Shown: in pieces, positions 43,201 through 61,343 of the stretch
How positions within the stretch are numbered: the first letter of the stretch is position 1
How the letters are laid out: every line of letters begins with the position of its first letter
NCBI RefSeq assembly: GCF_002531575.1
Contig: NZ_NWTI01000009.1
Span: 62,001-126,000, forward strand
Reading direction: 5' to 3'
From: Bradyrhizobium sp. Y36
GTDB lineage: Bacteria; Pseudomonadota; Alphaproteobacteria; Rhizobiales; Xanthobacteraceae
Length of the DNA stretch: 64,000 bases
Made by a program: the position numbers and the translations under genes
Notes under the pieces: generated by a model
Told to the model about the DNA's origin: nothing
The model's input: the letters and a program-made list of their open reading frames with translations, nothing else
Databases searched by the model: none

Positions 43201-43432
43201 GCATGTTCTCGACGCCGTTGATCTGCTCCTCGATCGGCGTCGCCACCGTTTCCGCGATCACCTTGGGGTTCGCGCCGGGATAGGTCGCACGCACCACGAC
43301 GGAGGGCGGCACGACATCGGGATATTCCGAGATCGGCATCGCGAACAGCGAGATCAGGCCTGCGAGAAAGATCAGGACCGACAGCACGCCGGCGAAAATC
43401 GGACGATCAATGAAGAACTTTGAGAGATTCAT
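40244..43432 (-). CDS. RND multidrug efflux permease (HAE-1 type)
   Basis: 1062 residues of the AcrB/MexF type, the inner-membrane pump of a tripartite efflux system. MNLSKFFIDRPIFAGVLSVL starts the first helix, GIVVDDAIVVVENVERN in TM4 has the proton-relay Asp pair, large periplasmic loops lie between TM1-2 and TM7-8, and ILIVEFARELE lies near the end. Drugs are exchanged for protons. ATG 43432 is chosen because it begins the conserved N terminus. It is downstream of its adaptor gene on the same strand; no outer-membrane channel gene is in the window. Confidence 0.92.
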   Translation of the reverse strand: MNLSKFFIDRPIFAGVLSVLIFLAGLISLFAMPISEYPDVVPPSVVVRATYPGANPKVIAETVATPIEEQINGVENMLYMSSQATTDGAMTLTVTFRLGTDPDKATQLVQNRVQQAEPRLPAVVRQLGIITKKSSPDLTMVVHLLSPNGRYDMTYLRNYAVLNVKDRLARIDGVGDVQLYGAGDYSMRVWVDPQKAAEHGLTASDIVKAIQAQNVEAAAGVVGSSPNVRGIDLQLSVNAEGRLANEEQFGDIVVKTGTRGEVVRLRDVARIELGASEYGLRSLLDNKQAVAIPIFQAPGSNALQISDNVRATMAEIKKNMPEGVSYQIVYDPTQFVRSSIEAVIHTLLEAIALVVLVVILFLQTWRASIIPLLAVPVSIVGTFAVMHVFGFSINALSLFGLVLAIGIVVDDAIVVVENVERNIEGGLSPRDATYQAMREVSGPIIAIAMMLIAVFVPLAFISGLTGQFYKQFALTIAISTVISAVNSLTLSPALSALLLKGHNEPKDRLTIIMEKGLGWFFRGFNKAFTRSSENYSGSVTRVISAKAAVMGLYVVLVGLTAFLFQQVPGGFVPGQDKQYLVGFARLPDGATLDRSEEVIRKMSDIALTQPGVESSVAFPGLSISGFTNSSNAGIVFSTLKPFDERKSPALSGNAIAADLNKKYAGIQEAFIAMFPPPPVNGLGTIGGFKLQIEDRAGLGYDALNQATNAFMAAMQKAPEIAGVFSSFQVNVPQLFADIDRTKALQLGVPVTEVFNTLQIYLGSYYVNDFNKFGRTYSVRVQADAPFRARADDIRQLKVRSSSGDMVPLSALLTIRQSAGPERAIRYNGFLSSDINAAAAPGFSSGQAQEAATRIAAEVLPPGFAFEWTDLTYQEFIAGNSGIWVFPLAILLVFLVLAALYESLTLPLSIIMIVPMGLLAAMFGVWISKGDNNVFTQIGLIVLVGLSAKNAILIVEFARELEFAGRTPIRAAIEASRLRLRPILMTSMAFIMGVLPLVLSTGAGSEMRRAMGVAVFSGMIGVTVFGLFLTPVFYVLLRTITGNKPLVHHGSDISAAPVQSAGH

Positions 43433-43482
43433 GGCCTTGCCCCTGGGCAATATCTTTGTCGTCTCCCGACAGCTCCGCCGTC

Positions 43483-43512
43483 ATTCCGGGGCGCGAAGCG
43501 CGAACCCGGAAT
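43483..43512. repeat. Palindromic intergenic element (ATTCCGGG...CCCGGAAT)
   Basis: Arms ATTCCGGG and CCCGGAAT enclose GCGCGAAGCGCGAA, itself with GCGC-GAA-GCGC symmetry. From memory this looks like the dispersed 'CGTCATTCCGGGGCGCG' palindromic element scattered between genes of Bradyrhizobium and Rhodopseudomonas. It lies inside the efflux operon between adaptor and pump. Confidence 0.6.
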
Positions 43513-43550
43513 CCAGAGGCGATGTGCTCGGAGTTTCGTAGCTCGTTCGT

Positions 43551-43569
43551 TCCGGGCGCGCGGCCCGGA
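43551..43569. repeat. Hairpin TCCGGGC-N5-GCCCGGA
   Basis: Perfect seven-base arms with a five-base loop, ten bases beyond the 3' end of the efflux adaptor gene (minus strand). With the element at 43483 it forms a structured spacer of about 90 bases in the operon. It could attenuate or protect the transcript. There is no T-run. Confidence 0.55.
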
Positions 43570-43578
43570 GCGAGGTAA

Positions 43579-44820
43579 CTAGCGTTGCACCACATCCTGG
43601 TTGCTGTGGTTGGACGCCTGCTGCCCGCGCGCGCCCATCGCCGCGACCTCCGTCTTCAGCAGGGCTCCGGGACGCACGCGTTGCAGACCGTTCACGACGA
43701 TGCGGTCGCCGGGCTTCAGACCCGCGGTGACGATGCGCAACCCGTCCACGGCGCCGCCGAGCGTGACCGGCCGGTACACCGCGCGGCTGTCGTCGCCGAC
43801 CGCCATCACGAACTTCTTGTCCTGGTCGGTGCCGATCGCGCGCTCGTCGATCATCACGAGCGTCTGCTGCTTCGGCTGGCCCATGCGCACGCGGGCGAAC
43901 TGGCCGGGGATCAGCCGCCCGTCCTCGTTCCGGAACACCGCGCGGACACGGATGGTGCCGCTCTGGCCGTTGACCTGGTTGTCGATGAGCTGGATGTGGC
44001 CTTTCGCCGAGAGGCCGCCGGAGGTCGCCATCTCCACCGGGATCTGGTCGAGATTGCCGCGGTGGCCCGAGGCGTCCGCGATCGCGTTCAGCGCATGCAG
44101 CACGACTTCTTCGTCCGCATCGAAGGAGGCGTAGATCGGATTGACCGAGACCAGCGAGGTCAGCACCGGGGAGGCGGTGCCGGCGGCGACGAGATTGCCG
44201 ACGGTGACCTCGATCTTGCCGACGCGGCCGTCCACGGGCGCGCGCACCTCGGTATAGTCGAGATTGAGCTTGGCGGTCTGGAGCGTCGCCTCGGCGGCCT
44301 TCACGTTGGCGATCGCTTCGCGATTGGCATTCTCGCGCTGATCGAAATCGCGACGGGTCACGACGGCGTTGCCGACGAGCTGCGCGCCGCGCTCGACTTC
44401 GCTGTTGGTGAACACCACGCGCGCCTTCGCCGCTTCGAGCTGGGCCGCGGCCTTGTCGACTTCGGCCGCGTAGGGGGCAGGGTCGATCTTGAACAGGACG
44501 TCGCCGGCCTTCACCAGCGCGCCCTCGGTGAAGTTGGCAGACAAGATCGCGCCGGCGACTCGCGGGCGCAGCTCAACGCGATGGACGGCCTCGAGCCGGC
44601 CGGAGAAATCGTCCCACAGCGCGGTCTGCTTCGGTTCGATCAGCGCGACGGTGACGGGGACGGCCTGTTCAGCCGCGGCGGCGGTCGCCGTGGCCTGGGC
44701 GGCATGGAAGTAGCGGCCGGTCGCGATCGAGCCCGCGGCGGCGAGGGCGCCGACAATGGCGACGCCGCCGAGAAGGCGGCGGAAACGGCCGGCGGAAGAT
44801 GTTTCTTGGGAGGGGGGCAT
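43579..44820 (-). CDS. RND efflux periplasmic adaptor (MFP)
   Basis: 413 residues. An N-terminal membrane anchor (about 13-33, LLGGVAIVGALAAAGSIATG) is followed by the lipoyl/barrel-sandwich halves (RVELRPRVAGAILSANFTEG and NLDYTEVRAPVDGRVG), a helical hairpin between them (about 125-185) and the beta-barrel domain, as in MexE and AcrA. It links the pump to an outer-membrane channel. ATG 44820 directly follows the divergent promoter region with a TetR-type operator. First gene of the efflux operon. Confidence 0.9.
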   Translation of the reverse strand: MPPSQETSSAGRFRRLLGGVAIVGALAAAGSIATGRYFHAAQATATAAAAEQAVPVTVALIEPKQTALWDDFSGRLEAVHRVELRPRVAGAILSANFTEGALVKAGDVLFKIDPAPYAAEVDKAAAQLEAAKARVVFTNSEVERGAQLVGNAVVTRRDFDQRENANREAIANVKAAEATLQTAKLNLDYTEVRAPVDGRVGKIEVTVGNLVAAGTASPVLTSLVSVNPIYASFDADEEVVLHALNAIADASGHRGNLDQIPVEMATSGGLSAKGHIQLIDNQVNGQSGTIRVRAVFRNEDGRLIPGQFARVRMGQPKQQTLVMIDERAIGTDQDKKFVMAVGDDSRAVYRPVTLGGAVDGLRIVTAGLKPGDRIVVNGLQRVRPGALLKTEVAAMGARGQQASNHSNQDVVQR

Positions 44821-44836
44821 TTGCGCGCTCCAGATA

Positions 44837-44852
44837 TGTAGTGTTCACTACA
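44837..44852. promoter_or_regulatory. Operator palindrome TGTAGTG-TT-CACTACA
   Basis: A perfect seven-base inverted repeat 17 bases upstream of the efflux adaptor gene, in the 199-base divergent region with the tetR gene at 45020. The symmetry and place fit binding of that TetR as repressor of the pump. Confidence 0.7.
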
Positions 44853-45019
44853 AATGTGGAGCTGGATACCGCAGCGCAAGATACTTATGTATCAATCGCT
44901 AAGAAAAATGTACGTCGATACCGCGACAATTGGAAGACACAAGAAAAAGAAAGTTAGAACAAATAGATAGGGACCGGCGTTAGGCTGACACCGCCGGCCG
45001 CTTCCGAGGAGACAGGCAC

Positions 45020-45634
45020 ATGCGCATGGGACGCCCCCGCGAGTTCGACGCCGAAACGGCGTTGGACCAGGCGATGGAAGTGTTTTGGCGCCATGGCTAT
45101 GAGGGCGCCACCATCGCCCAGCTGACCGAGGCCATGGGCATCAATCCCCCCAGCCTCTATGCCTGCTTCGGCAACAAGGAAGGCCTGCTGAAGGCCGCGC
45201 TCGACCGTTACACCAAATTGCGCGGCGCCTGGATGGACGAGGTGGTCGCGGCCCGCACCGCGCGCGACGTCGCCGAGCGGATGCTGATGGGCATCGCCGA
45301 CAAGCAGACCGATCCCGCCAATCCGCCCGGCTGCCTGCTCGTGCAGGGCGGCATCGCCTGCGGCACCGGTTCCGAGAACGTCCCCTTCGAGCTCGCCGCC
45401 CGCCGCGCCCAGAACGAGGACCAGCTTCGCGACCGTTTTGTTCGCGCCAAGGCGGAAGGTGATCTCAAGTCGACGTCAGATCCCGCCGCGCTCGCGCGCT
45501 ACGTCTCGGCGGTCGCGGTCGGCATGGGGGTGATGGCATCCTCGGGCGCGGACCGCGAAGCGTTGCGGCAGGTGGCTGATGTCGCGGTGCAGGCGGTCGA
45601 GGCGCAGTCGACTGAGGTCCCTGCTGCCTCGTGA
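45020..45634 (+). CDS. TetR/AcrR-family regulator of the RND efflux operon
   Basis: 204 residues. Helix-turn-helix at about 10-57: TALDQAMEVFWRHGYEGAT, IAQLTEAMGINPPSLYACFG, with NKEGLLKAALDRY. The C-terminal domain has the PPGCLLVQGGIA pattern of the AcrR/NemR-like subgroup that senses toxic compounds. GAGGAGACAGGCAC precedes ATG 45020. It is divergent from the efflux adaptor. Its last codons (VAVQAVEAQSTEVPAAS) have an imperfect copy 1.3 kb downstream at 46829-46897, which suggests that the 3' end was duplicated or replaced when the region in between arrived. Confidence 0.88.
   Translation: MRMGRPREFDAETALDQAMEVFWRHGYEGATIAQLTEAMGINPPSLYACFGNKEGLLKAALDRYTKLRGAWMDEVVAARTARDVAERMLMGIADKQTDPANPPGCLLVQGGIACGTGSENVPFELAARRAQNEDQLRDRFVRAKAEGDLKSTSDPAALARYVSAVAVGMGVMASSGADREALRQVADVAVQAVEAQSTEVPAAS
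45599..45615 (+). repeat. Direct repeat, left copy (GAGGCGCAGTCGACTGA)
   Basis: 17 bases at the 3' end of the tetR gene, identical to 46871-46887. Including mismatches the match extends about 18 bases further upstream. The two copies flank an A+T-richer segment with one gene. Confidence 0.75.
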
Positions 45635-45915
45635 TGGCTCACGATTTTCTTCGCGGCTTAGCTGATAATGCCGCCACCTCGCGCAAGTGAGCTGAGCGTA
45701 GGCGCGCCTTTGAGCATATCCTTCATAGGACACCGATCTTCCACCATGGTCACTCGAACGGGCCACGATTGGAAGGCGGGCTCTACAGCGTGCATCTAGG
45801 AACGGGTCAGGTAACCTAAAGTAGAATTAGTTTGCCGCGTCATTCCGAGTAGATTCGGTGCCGGTCCTTTCCTATTCAAGTCATTTTCCGAACCATTTAT
45901 TTGGGTGAGAATCCT

Positions 45916-46791
45916 ATGAGCAATGGAGCCGATTCCCAGTTCGATATTGAACGAGAGAAGCTTAGCGTAGAGCGCTACAAGTCCAAGCTGGACTTTTGGA
46001 AATTTGTGCTTGGCAGTGTGTGTGCGGCTATTGCAATCGCAGCAATTCCACCCTCATTCCAGCTTGCCACAGCGTTTCTTGAGAGTGTGAGAAGCGATAA
46101 GGATCGACAAGTTAAGCAACAGGAATTTCGGGACGGCTATATCAAAGACTTCCTTAACAACGCGCTGAATCAGGATATCGAACTTCGGATCCGCTTCGCA
46201 CAATATTTTGCTTTTGTCTCCGCCGACACCTTTCGTAAGGGGTGGAATGACTATCGCAGCGAGTTGCAGAAACAACGGGACGATATCCGCAAGGATATCG
46301 ACCAAATGGAAGGCGATTGGCTGAAGGCCGTTCGAGCCAAGGAGCCTGATGATCTGCGAATAGAGCATCTCGAGCGCCGCTTAAAATGGGCTTATGCTGA
46401 GGTAGGATACGTCGAGAAGGATCGAAGTGCCTCGATCAATCCGCGCGCCAAGGTACAAGTGCCGGAATTGCCATCCGACAAGAACATTCAAGCCGCCAAT
46501 TATCGCGTATTTGTTCAATTTGCCGGTGTCATCACTCGTGACGAGATGCGAGTCATGATGCGTAAATTGGGCGATGTTGGTTGGAATGTTCAGGGCGCTG
46601 AACTCGGTGGCGAACGTACCCCGGCTGCCGCAGGGCTACAAGAAGTGCGCTTTTCGGACGCGGTTGATGAAGCGGCGGCAAGAGTACTCGCGCAAGCCGT
46701 ACAAGCTTCCAGCATAGTCTCCCGACCGGTTGTTGCGAAACTCAGCTCGGGAGTGCCAAAGGGCGCTCTTGAGGTTTGGATTAGCAGATAG
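45916..46791 (+). CDS. Membrane-anchored hypothetical protein in an A+T-richer insert
   Basis: About 291 residues. After a charged N terminus a membrane helix (about 27-52, FVLGSVCAAIAIAAIPPSF) anchors the protein; a charged helical region likely to form a coiled coil (YRSELQKQRDDIRKDIDQM) follows; the C-terminal part (ANYRVFVQFAGVITRDEMR to GALEVWISR) resembles SPOR/LytR_C-like alpha-beta domains in outline. No family is recognised. Its DNA is visibly richer in A and T than the neighbours and codon use differs, which suggests transfer. ATG 45916 is preferred to an upstream TTG. It sits between two copies of the tetR 3' end. Confidence 0.65.
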   Translation: MSNGADSQFDIEREKLSVERYKSKLDFWKFVLGSVCAAIAIAAIPPSFQLATAFLESVRSDKDRQVKQQEFRDGYIKDFLNNALNQDIELRIRFAQYFAFVSADTFRKGWNDYRSELQKQRDDIRKDIDQMEGDWLKAVRAKEPDDLRIEHLERRLKWAYAEVGYVEKDRSASINPRAKVQVPELPSDKNIQAANYRVFVQFAGVITRDEMRVMMRKLGDVGWNVQGAELGGERTPAAAGLQEVRFSDAVDEAAARVLAQAVQASSIVSRPVVAKLSSGVPKGALEVWISR

Positions 46792-46828
46792 TTGGTCGGA
46801 ATAATCCTGCCGCAGGGCAGGGCCTGGA

Positions 46829-46897
46829 AAGGCGCTGTCCTTGGTGGCAAGTGTGGCCGTGCCGGTGGTTGAGGCGCAGTCGACTGAAAGAACGTGA
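46829..46897 (+). pseudogene. Remnant of a tetR 3' end
   Basis: Reading in one frame to a TGA at 46895 gives ALSLVASVAVPVVEAQSTERT, which lines up without gaps with the C terminus of the TetR at 45020 (ALRQVADVAVQAVEAQSTE). The frame is stopped upstream at 46802, so this is only a tail. It is either the displaced original end of the gene or the relic of a decayed second copy. Confidence 0.7.
46871..46887 (+). repeat. Direct repeat, right copy (GAGGCGCAGTCGACTGA)
   Basis: Second copy of the 17-base repeat at 45599-45615, inside the tetR remnant. It marks the right border of the A+T-richer segment. Confidence 0.75.
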
Positions 46898-46930
46898 CGA
46901 CTATTAGCGTCGTCCCCTCTCATGTTGCGG

Positions 46931-48421
46931 TTATTTGGCAGGCAGCGACGGCGGCGCGACGAAGCCGCCGAACTCGCGTTCGATCAGCTCGGCGAGCGCG
47001 ATCGTCGTGCGGTCCTCCAGATATGGTCCGATGATCTGGACGCCGATCGGAAGGCCGGTGGGCGTGCGCTCGATCGGAACGGCGGTCGCCGGCAGTCCGC
47101 AGGTCGAGGCGGGGTCGGCCCAGATGAAGCACGCATCGGAGTAATTGTAGAGCTTGCCGTCGATGTCGAGCTGCCGCGCCTCGAACGGCTCGGAATGGTC
47201 GTGCGGAAAGGCCGGCACGGTGGCGACGGGATAGATCACCACGTCGAACTCGCGGAAGAACTGCTGCCAGCGTTGCTGCAGCTGCAGCCGGGCCGCGTCG
47301 GCTGCGAGCCATTCACGATGGAGCATGCCCCAGCCGCGGGCACGTTCGGCCTGCAGGCTGCGGTCGTCGGGTGAGAGTGCCGCGGCAAGGCCTTGCGCTT
47401 CGGCGAGCGCGGCGGGTGTCAGGCGCGGGCTTCGCGCGCCGTTGAGCAGCCTCATGTAGAGCCGCGCGGAGTCCGCAAGATCAGGCAGCGAGGCGCTGGC
47501 ACGCGCGACATGAGCGCCCGATCTGCCTAGCCGGTCGGCCAATCGTCCGATGGCAGAACGTACGGCGTCACCTGTCGGCATCAGCGGATGCGTATCGATC
47601 ACGAGGATCCTGAAATCCCTGAGATCGGCATGGCGAGGGGCGGGCAGTGCGAGCCGATAGCCGACCCCATCGCGCAGCTCGTCGGGGCCGGCGATGACGT
47701 CGAGCGACAGGGCAAGATCCGAGGCCGTGCGCGCCATCGGCCCAAGGACGGCGAGATCGCCCTGGCCGGGAACAGGCGGCGCCGGCGGCAGGTTGTATCC
47801 CCGCAGCGGCACCAGGCCAAGGCTCGGCTTGTGCCCGAACACGCCGCAGAAATGCGACGGGACCCGGATCGAGCCGCCGATATCCGAGCCGATCGAGAGC
47901 GGGCCGAAGCCTGCGGCGAGCGCCGCGCCCGATCCGCCCGAGGAGCCGCCGGGCGACCGGTCGAGATCCCATGGATTCCTGGTCGTGCCATAGATCTCGT
48001 TGTAGCTCTGGAAATCCCTGAGGCCGATCGGGATGTTGGTCTTGCCGATGATGATGGCGCCCGCCGCCTTCAGCCGCGACACGACGAGAGCGTCCTCGGG
48101 TGGCTGAAAATCCCTGAAATGCGGAAAGCCCCAGGTCGTCGGCAGGCCCGCGACGTTGAACGGCTCTTTCATGGTGACGGGGATGCCGAGCAACGGCCGC
48201 CGTTCGCCGCGGCCAAGCGCGGCATCGGCAGCGCGCGCGGCGTCTCTGGCGCGATCGAAATCGCGAACGATGATGGCGTTGATCTTGCCATCCAGCGCCT
48301 CGATGCGCGCGATGGTGTGTTCGAGCAACTCCGACGCCGACATCTTGCGAGCGTGCAGGGCGCCGAGAAGGGCGCTGATCGGGCCGTAGTCCAAGTCAGC
48401 AGCGTCCGCGGCTCTTTGCAT
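46931..48421 (-). CDS. Amidase (amidase-signature family)
   Basis: 496 residues. The Ser-cisSer-Lys triad is visible: Lys85 in PVTMKEPF, the cis-Ser in PGGSSGGSGAALAAGFG (about 158-173) and the nucleophile Ser184 in GSDIGGSIR. The enzyme hydrolyses a carboxylic amide; length and the FIWADPASTCGLPATAVP block are typical of acylamidase/6-aminohexanoate-type members. No leader, so cytosolic. GGAGG lies four bases before ATG 48421. It is divergent from the MFS gene across a 374-base gap. Confidence 0.88.
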   Translation of the reverse strand: MQRAADAADLDYGPISALLGALHARKMSASELLEHTIARIEALDGKINAIIVRDFDRARDAARAADAALGRGERRPLLGIPVTMKEPFNVAGLPTTWGFPHFRDFQPPEDALVVSRLKAAGAIIIGKTNIPIGLRDFQSYNEIYGTTRNPWDLDRSPGGSSGGSGAALAAGFGPLSIGSDIGGSIRVPSHFCGVFGHKPSLGLVPLRGYNLPPAPPVPGQGDLAVLGPMARTASDLALSLDVIAGPDELRDGVGYRLALPAPRHADLRDFRILVIDTHPLMPTGDAVRSAIGRLADRLGRSGAHVARASASLPDLADSARLYMRLLNGARSPRLTPAALAEAQGLAAALSPDDRSLQAERARGWGMLHREWLAADAARLQLQQRWQQFFREFDVVIYPVATVPAFPHDHSEPFEARQLDIDGKLYNYSDACFIWADPASTCGLPATAVPIERTPTGLPIGVQIIGPYLEDRTTIALAELIEREFGGFVAPPSLPAK

Positions 48422-48795
48422 GGGACCTCCATCTCGCGATCCGAAACAGTCGTGCCTTCCGGTCGGTTAATGGATCCGGACGAAGGCAACTCGATATGGC
48501 GATCGTGCAATCGTGCCGCTGTTTTGCCCGACGTGTCAAACGCGGCATCAGGCTCGGCCGCACGCAGGAAAATTCTTCAATGATTTGTACTTTGCATGGG
48601 GTTGTTTTCGCATTTCTTGTTTGAGAGGTGGCAGCCTGAGCATCAGCGGCCGGAAACGGATCGATACGCTCGCCCCTAAGAGTTTCTACACACAGTTCTG
48701 GCACCCTCCGCCCGTCAATCCGCAACCCGCATCGGCGCCTCTCATTGCGCGCACGAAAAGACGAGGCCCGCGGAAATCGAGGGGGCGTAAAAGCC
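48422..48795. other. Divergent intergenic region (amidase / MFS)
   Basis: About 370 bases with no convincing gene; an open frame through it on the plus strand has no family features. It holds the promoters of both neighbours and the repeat-like segment at 48525-48615. Confidence 0.4.
48525..48615. repeat. Possible dispersed Bradyrhizobium intergenic repeat
   Basis: TGCCCGACGTGTCAAA at the left and TTTGCATGGGGTTGTTTTCG at the right resemble, from memory, a degenerate repeat found in many Bradyrhizobium intergenic regions. The segment is richer in T than its surroundings. Only one copy is in this window, so it cannot be shown here. Confidence 0.3.
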
Positions 48796-61269: not shown

Positions 61270-61343
61270 TGGGGAATGGTGTAACGGTAGCACAACAGAC
61301 TCTGACTCTGTTTGTCTTGGTTCGAATCCAGGTTCCCCAGCCA
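61270..61343 (+). tRNA. tRNA-Gln (anticodon CTG)
   Basis: 74 bases with encoded CCA. The acceptor stem TGGGGAA pairs with TTCCCCA, the anticodon arm is ACAGA-CTCTGAC-TCTGT with anticodon CTG, and the T arm is CTTGG-TTCGAAT-CCAGG. It lies between a transporter gene and a lysozyme-like gene on the other strand. Confidence 0.95.

Follow-up and report, generated by a model that had tools for sequence, protein, structure and literature searches.

A displaced tetR gene end and the variable tetR–amidase pocket of Bradyrhizobium

In Bradyrhizobium sp. Y36, about 1.2 kb of DNA of foreign composition lies between a TetR-family regulator gene and a convergent amidase gene, with a displaced and decayed copy of the tetR 3' end on its far side. 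Related genomes have the two genes next to each other (the empty site) or separated by unrelated cargo, and the contig carries no match to the integrase family searched for. Comparison of the 64-kb stretch analysed here (the window) with these relatives supports the view that DNA entered at the tetR 3' end, gave the gene a new end and displaced the native one. The region is probably a hotspot of accessory-gene turnover, with the window holding one allele of a variable pocket that is exchanged between convergent tetR and amidase genes via recombination in the flanks. The features of the locus are listed in Table 1; to the left of tetR lie the genes for an RND pump (ACR_tran) and an HlyD-type fusion protein.

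Table 1. Features of the tetR–amidase region, in positions of the window
Feature	Position	Strand	Remarks
TetR-family regulator gene	45020..45634	+	204 aa, TetR_N match; ends in VEAQSTEVPAAS and a stop codon; adjoins RND efflux operon
Left 17-bp repeat copy	45599..45615	+	Similarity to related loci stops at tetR nt 591 (45610)
Foreign segment	45611..46828		A+T-rich; without DNA counterpart at the same place in the relatives examined
Terminator-like hairpin at new tetR stop codon	45629..45644	+	Consensus match only
Orphan gene, 291 aa	45916..46788	+	The segment's one ORF; N part and C-terminal module
Decayed tetR 3'-end fossil, last ~65-69 nt	46829..46897	+	Reads VEAQSTERT at its end, then stop; contains right 17-bp copy (46871-46887)
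Terminator-like hairpin in native tetR–amidase spacer	46896..46914	-	Consensus match only
Amidase (PF01425)	46931..48421	-	Convergent with tetR; right wall of the pocket

The displaced tetR end and the empty site in relatives

The 17-mer GAGGCGCAGTCGACTGA occurs exactly twice in the window, and a search allowing up to three mismatches found no third copy there (5 of 100 shuffles gave two matches at that tolerance). The agreement extends further to the left, with 37 of 48 bases equal in an ungapped comparison of 45568-45615 and 46840-46887, against 28 at the best other place in the window on either strand, which rules out a chance repeat. In the TetR reading frame the right copy gives LVASVAVPVVEAQSTERT followed by a stop codon at 46895-46897. 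Positions 46829-46893 score 38.6 bits with a profile of 46 orthologous tetR 3' ends, which was built without locus L153, where the tetR frame passes the usual stop; the best match not counted as a remnant, in 685 kb around related tetR genes, reaches 19.5 bits. An intact second tetR as the ancestor of the right copy was also considered and is ruled out, as tetR DNA matches the insert side by its final nt 552-596 only.

The duplicated tetR 3' end that a sequence-only reading of this DNA had described is thus confirmed by the two exact 17-mers, the right one of which lies within a decayed tetR tail. The same reading had pointed to an A+T-richer stretch between the repeats with one gene of no known family, and this also holds: G+C content is 52.5% in 45616-46839 compared with 64.5% in the whole window, the lowest value among all 1,224-bp windows taken in 200-bp steps, and the stretch holds a single ORF of 291 aa. 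The region has three terminator-like hairpins, all of them consensus matches only, where shuffled sequence gives 1.3 (sd 1.2).

The state without the segment can be seen in related genomes, which were sampled as one genome per species (G000 being that of the window itself). The comparison rests on 100 tetR loci of the genus, chosen by hand among the better scorers of the 185 genomes in which tetR had a match, some of equal score being left out; their tetR genes are at least 87.8% identical to that of the window. In 47 of these loci the amidase lies no more than 41 bp from the tetR stop (overlapping tetR in L153), so that the empty site which the earlier reading had proposed to look for in relatives lacking the segment is present. 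The amidase match covers at least 480 residues in 43 of the 47. Truncation of the amidase at the pocket is often seen, and in the other four loci (L104, L140, L157, L164) just 32-85 aa of its 3' sequence match beside tetR. At L153 (genome G112) the tetR frame continues to 246 aa after an apparent one-base length change, and the amidase is matched over 489 aa.

At empty sites TetR mostly ends in EAQSxxRT (EAQSADRT or near), and the EAQSTERT tail, which is how the window's fossil reads, is found in four of them (G263, G241, G180 and G170). Fossil and spacer together (46844-46930) are 86% identical to G263 over 88 nt. Joining 45020-45615 to the sequence from 46888 onwards yields a 201-aa TetR ending in EAQSTERT, and over 311 nt this join is 87.5% identical to G263. 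Because relatives carry EAQSTERT and the join is like G263, the right copy is taken to be the native tetR end and the left tail, VPAAS, the new one. The empty sites in relatives and the joined flanks therefore point to DNA having entered at the tetR end, where it brought the new tail (STEVPAAS) and displaced the old one. None of the observations that the sequence-only reading had named as speaking against it was made: the arrangement is not common to all relatives, the composition is not uniform and no intact second tetR is present.

Contents of the pocket and its orphan protein

Amidase sequence lies within the fetched ~5 kb after tetR in 60 of the 100 loci, at a distance of 0.7-4.2 kb in 13 of them (among these L141, where there is just an amidase end); the remaining 40 have no amidase in that stretch. 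When the window's own locus is included, the first 800 bp 3' of tetR fall into 19 groups among 101 loci. Fourteen pocket sequences were compared with each other and had no mutual DNA similarity at E 1e-4, save for the pairs L075/L079, L095/L102 and L084/L090, and the contents of the pockets of G000, G155 and G291 are unrelated. The 18 cargo or downstream ORFs of relatives that were scanned include members of the metallo-beta-lactamase fold, LTXXQ, pentapeptide, PCMT, PLD-like and rhomboid families, and others without an assigned family; none is an integrase, and the one sign of mobility genes among them is a sub-threshold transposase zinc-ribbon match (E 0.0093) in L129. In the 4.2-kb pocket of G155 (L074 2656-6522) there are three ORFs without confident families, the second having weak coiled-coil-type Pfam matches only. 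A collection of named genomes, which partly repeats the 100-locus set, gave 80 loci (79 titled Bradyrhizobium or Bradyrhizobiaceae and one Frankia), of which 25 have the two genes adjacent, eight are filled and 47 have no amidase within 6 kb.

The orphan protein encoded in the window's segment consists of an N part (residues about 8-180) with one hydrophobic stretch and a coiled coil, and a C-terminal module (about 190-291), each of which occurs apart in other proteins. Searches of Pfam, NCBIfam, PADLOC and PHROGs gave no match for the ORF, either to a recombinase family or to any other, and a known defence or phage gene as cargo was rejected on PADLOC, PHROGs, phage and viral searches. None of the searches returned a protein that combines the two parts, whether in 265 genomes of the genus (13 matching, own included), in 397 genomes of the order (6 matching, own included), on plasmids (5 records, partial) or in phages (zero matches), and searches by peptide patterns gave no relatives in genome contigs or viral contigs. 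The genus, order, plasmid, phage and contig searches likewise gave no donor of the segment. Profile searches of both modules against solved structures returned nothing under E 0.1, and an AlphaFold model made from one sequence (mean pLDDT 40.7) was set aside.

The N part is 60% identical to a portion of a protein of G280 and 45.6% identical to sequence in four Rhizobium plasmid records. It recurs (window 45916-46461) with other C-terminal parts, namely DUF1353 in L065 and parts of no family in L067 and L068. The last 100 aa (window 46480-46788) are found again as the C-terminal part of patatin, TIR, nSTAND1 and WD40 proteins of the genus (L069, L033, L072, L070), and this module of ~100 aa has 12 invariant columns in seven sequences, among them F-A-G and L-x-x-W. 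The orphan thus joins an unnamed C-terminal module of patatin, TIR, nSTAND1 and WD40 proteins to a membrane and coiled-coil N part; going by the partners of the module, one might guess at a role in signalling or conflict.

Routes by which the segment may have been joined

The ancestral order would have been tetR, ending in EAQSTERT, a spacer of ~40 bp and the amidase. Foreign DNA of ~1.2 kb with one membrane-protein gene would have entered at the tetR end in the lineage of the window, upon which TetR would have lost its last few residues, which may have been dispensable, and come to end in VPAAS, the incoming DNA also bringing a terminator-like hairpin. Beside the amidase the former tail, ~65 nt long, would have remained, decaying. 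The join was probably made not by an integrase of the segment but by the host's own recombination, acting on related incoming DNA where the flanks are conserved, and at least one short-homology or illegitimate join would have fallen inside the tetR tail.

The flanks are informative in this regard. When 12 pieces of the window's flanks were compared with the 100 loci, G155 was nearest for six and G291 for four, the fetched stretch of G155 ending at the last three pieces; for the fossil piece the nearest locus was G263. That G155 and G291, nearest in most flank pieces, hold contents unrelated to those of G000 fits double recombination at conserved flanks. Similarity to G155 falls from 96.3% at 43850-44450 to 86.4% at 43250-43850, where G002 is the nearest locus (88.9%), and 43250-43850, in the pump operon, is a possible recombination border in the left flank. 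Nothing is shared in the 800 bp after tetR in 12 of the 21 pairs of loci that are at least 94% alike. The left break points of these 12 pairs lie at tetR nt 587-599, and in the five pairs that have both amidase ends the right ones precede amidase codon 490 by 2-23 nt.

The sister pair G296 (filled) and G297 (empty), which stands outside the 21-pair set as an upstream length difference hid it from the gap-free comparison, has flanks that are 99.1 and 99.4% identical, and differs in all that lies from the tetR end to the amidase end. Insertion into a G297-like empty site predicts that the tail and spacer are as alike as the flanks; the fossil-like tail and the spacer are also clearly diverged, up to the amidase end, and thus the whole pocket allele differs. 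Several observations count against recombination at the flanks. The SNP comparison described below was negative and no donor of the segment turned up; the left and right copies in the window share five bases past the conserved stretch, as a crossover core would; and fossils in several pockets start alike, which generic recombination does not predict.

The locus recalls the e14 prophage of Escherichia coli, which is reported to supply the 3' end of icd and to have a displaced 163-bp copy at its far end (PMC6379469). The window has the same architecture: a protein gene has received its new 3' end from inserted DNA, on the far side of which the old end now lies. Furthermore, 11 of the 31 bases 5' of the right 17-mer are not those of the left copy and the 17-mer itself is exact, as a crossover inside a core would leave. 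A decayed or integrase-less element of this type, inserted site-specifically at the tetR 3' end with GAGGCGCAGTCGACTGA as its core and carrying a substitute tail, is nevertheless an unlikely explanation. Across 101 loci tetR is conserved up to nt 591 and similarity drops directly after; 12 of the 17 supposed core bases are within this conserved part, which in 7 of 100 loci is followed by the other five, ACTGA. The exact 17-mer is therefore weaker evidence for an attachment core than it looks, though a crossover at that place would leave it. Compared with e14 as described (PMC6379469), the segment is small (~1.2 kb, one gene, no integrase or phage gene found) and the new tail consists of a few unrelated residues instead of a near-copy. 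There is no PF00589 match on the window's contig (C56 of G000), and in the 14 pocket genomes the nearest one on tetR's contig is at least 13.9 kb off or absent, some of these contigs being short. The integrase at 13.9 kb, in G240, was considered as a pocket gene and rejected, since it lies beyond the part that is collinear with the window. From one species to another the pockets mostly have unrelated contents, and the exchanged block of G296/G297 runs to the amidase end, past the supposed core. The earlier reading had proposed to look for the same membrane protein with the same borders elsewhere; when two candidate places were scored in each of 264 other genomes of the genus, no such second copy appeared.

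It is distinctly unlikely that cargo between tetR-tail repeats is excised as a circle and then integrated into further tetR tails through a single RecA-dependent crossover, and similarly doubtful that the tetR tail forms an integrase-free cassette site with repeats of ~50-65 bp, at which a fresh end and terminator would arrive each time and the previous tail be fossilised. Such exchange would account for the fossil tetR tails that lie beyond unrelated cargo; these are distinct by score in G245 (28.3 bits) and G232 (31.6). Weaker matches lie at the expected place in G291 (17.6), G022 (16.8) and G296 (10.2), but are not above background by score; G022 is collinear with G232, and both are without an amidase in the fetched stretch. 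Most of the fossils start at a similar place in tetR (profile positions 67-88, or 103 in the weakest). However, 10 of the 14 pockets with an amidase have no profile match to a tetR tail under E 0.01, the repeats are short (~50-65 bp only) and diverged, and neither a circle nor a shared cassette was seen. In G240 (L259 600-3910) the central part of the amidase gene is replaced by two tandem repeat-rich ORFs, and its two ends are kept. Either neighbour can thus leave remnants, an argument against a site specific to the tetR tail.

A single ancestral insertion in the clade or genus, which left the fossil and was followed by decay and replacement of the cargo, is very unlikely to have given this variety. 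It agrees with the finding that G000, G155 and G291 form one starred clade in which all pockets are filled, and that a tail remnant stands beside the amidase in both G000 and G291, but not with the lack of a remnant in G155 or with the different tail types of the remnants (TERT and AGKT). On the acrA–tetR tree the 14 filled loci call for 12 state changes, at least 10 of them forced by starred branches, which also speaks against one insertion. Shuffled labels gave a mean of 13.4 changes, with 64 of 500 shuffles as low as 12, and the filled pockets are thus scattered over the tree.

Exchange of pocket alleles by recombination at the conserved flanks hence remains the reading that we prefer, and the original join behind the window's fossil is not separable by sequence alone from an e14-like insertion. 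The earlier reading of an element inserted at the tetR 3' end stands in its account of the entry, the new gene end and the displaced tail, and is not supported in its comparison with integrative elements of the tRNA-site type; its alternative, recombination between tetR copies, fits better than an integrative element. A tRNA or known RNA as the target was rejected: the single tRNA that ARAGORN finds in the window is at 61270, and none of the Rfam families reaches threshold in 44000-48500.

Relation to described hotspots and significance

Hotspots lacking mobile elements have been reported, and double recombination at conserved flanking genes was proposed in 2017 as their mechanism (PMC5635113). 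The pocket resembles these hotspots in its conserved flanking genes, its turnover of unrelated cargo and the finding of no integrase. It differs in being seen between species of a single genus, with one genome each, and in having a displaced gene-end fossil. The extra flank recombination of those hotspots (PMC5635113) could not be shown for the pocket, where SNP density beside it was not higher with different contents (13 pairs against 14 like pairs, p 0.85; relabelled, 12 against 15, p 0.67). The 27 sister pairs of this test were read by hand off the acrA–tetR tree, and G135–G207 among them are not strict sisters. Taken alone, G296/G297 differ by 10 SNPs in the final 330 nt and by 4 in the 1,000 nt further off (p 0.0003). 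Literature on this Bradyrhizobium tetR–amidase site was not found by titles and the starts of abstracts, a coverage that leaves subscription journals mostly outside.

The pocket appears to be a clear case of a process already known, and not a new type of mobile element. Gene gain without integrases has been described for hotspots before, but single events are hard to see there; here, the displaced gene end marks where a join fell, and both the empty and the filled state occur among relatives. An unnamed protein module common to TIR, patatin and STAND-type proteins also comes to light at this site. For TetR itself, the comparison suggests that its last residues are free to vary with whatever DNA follows.
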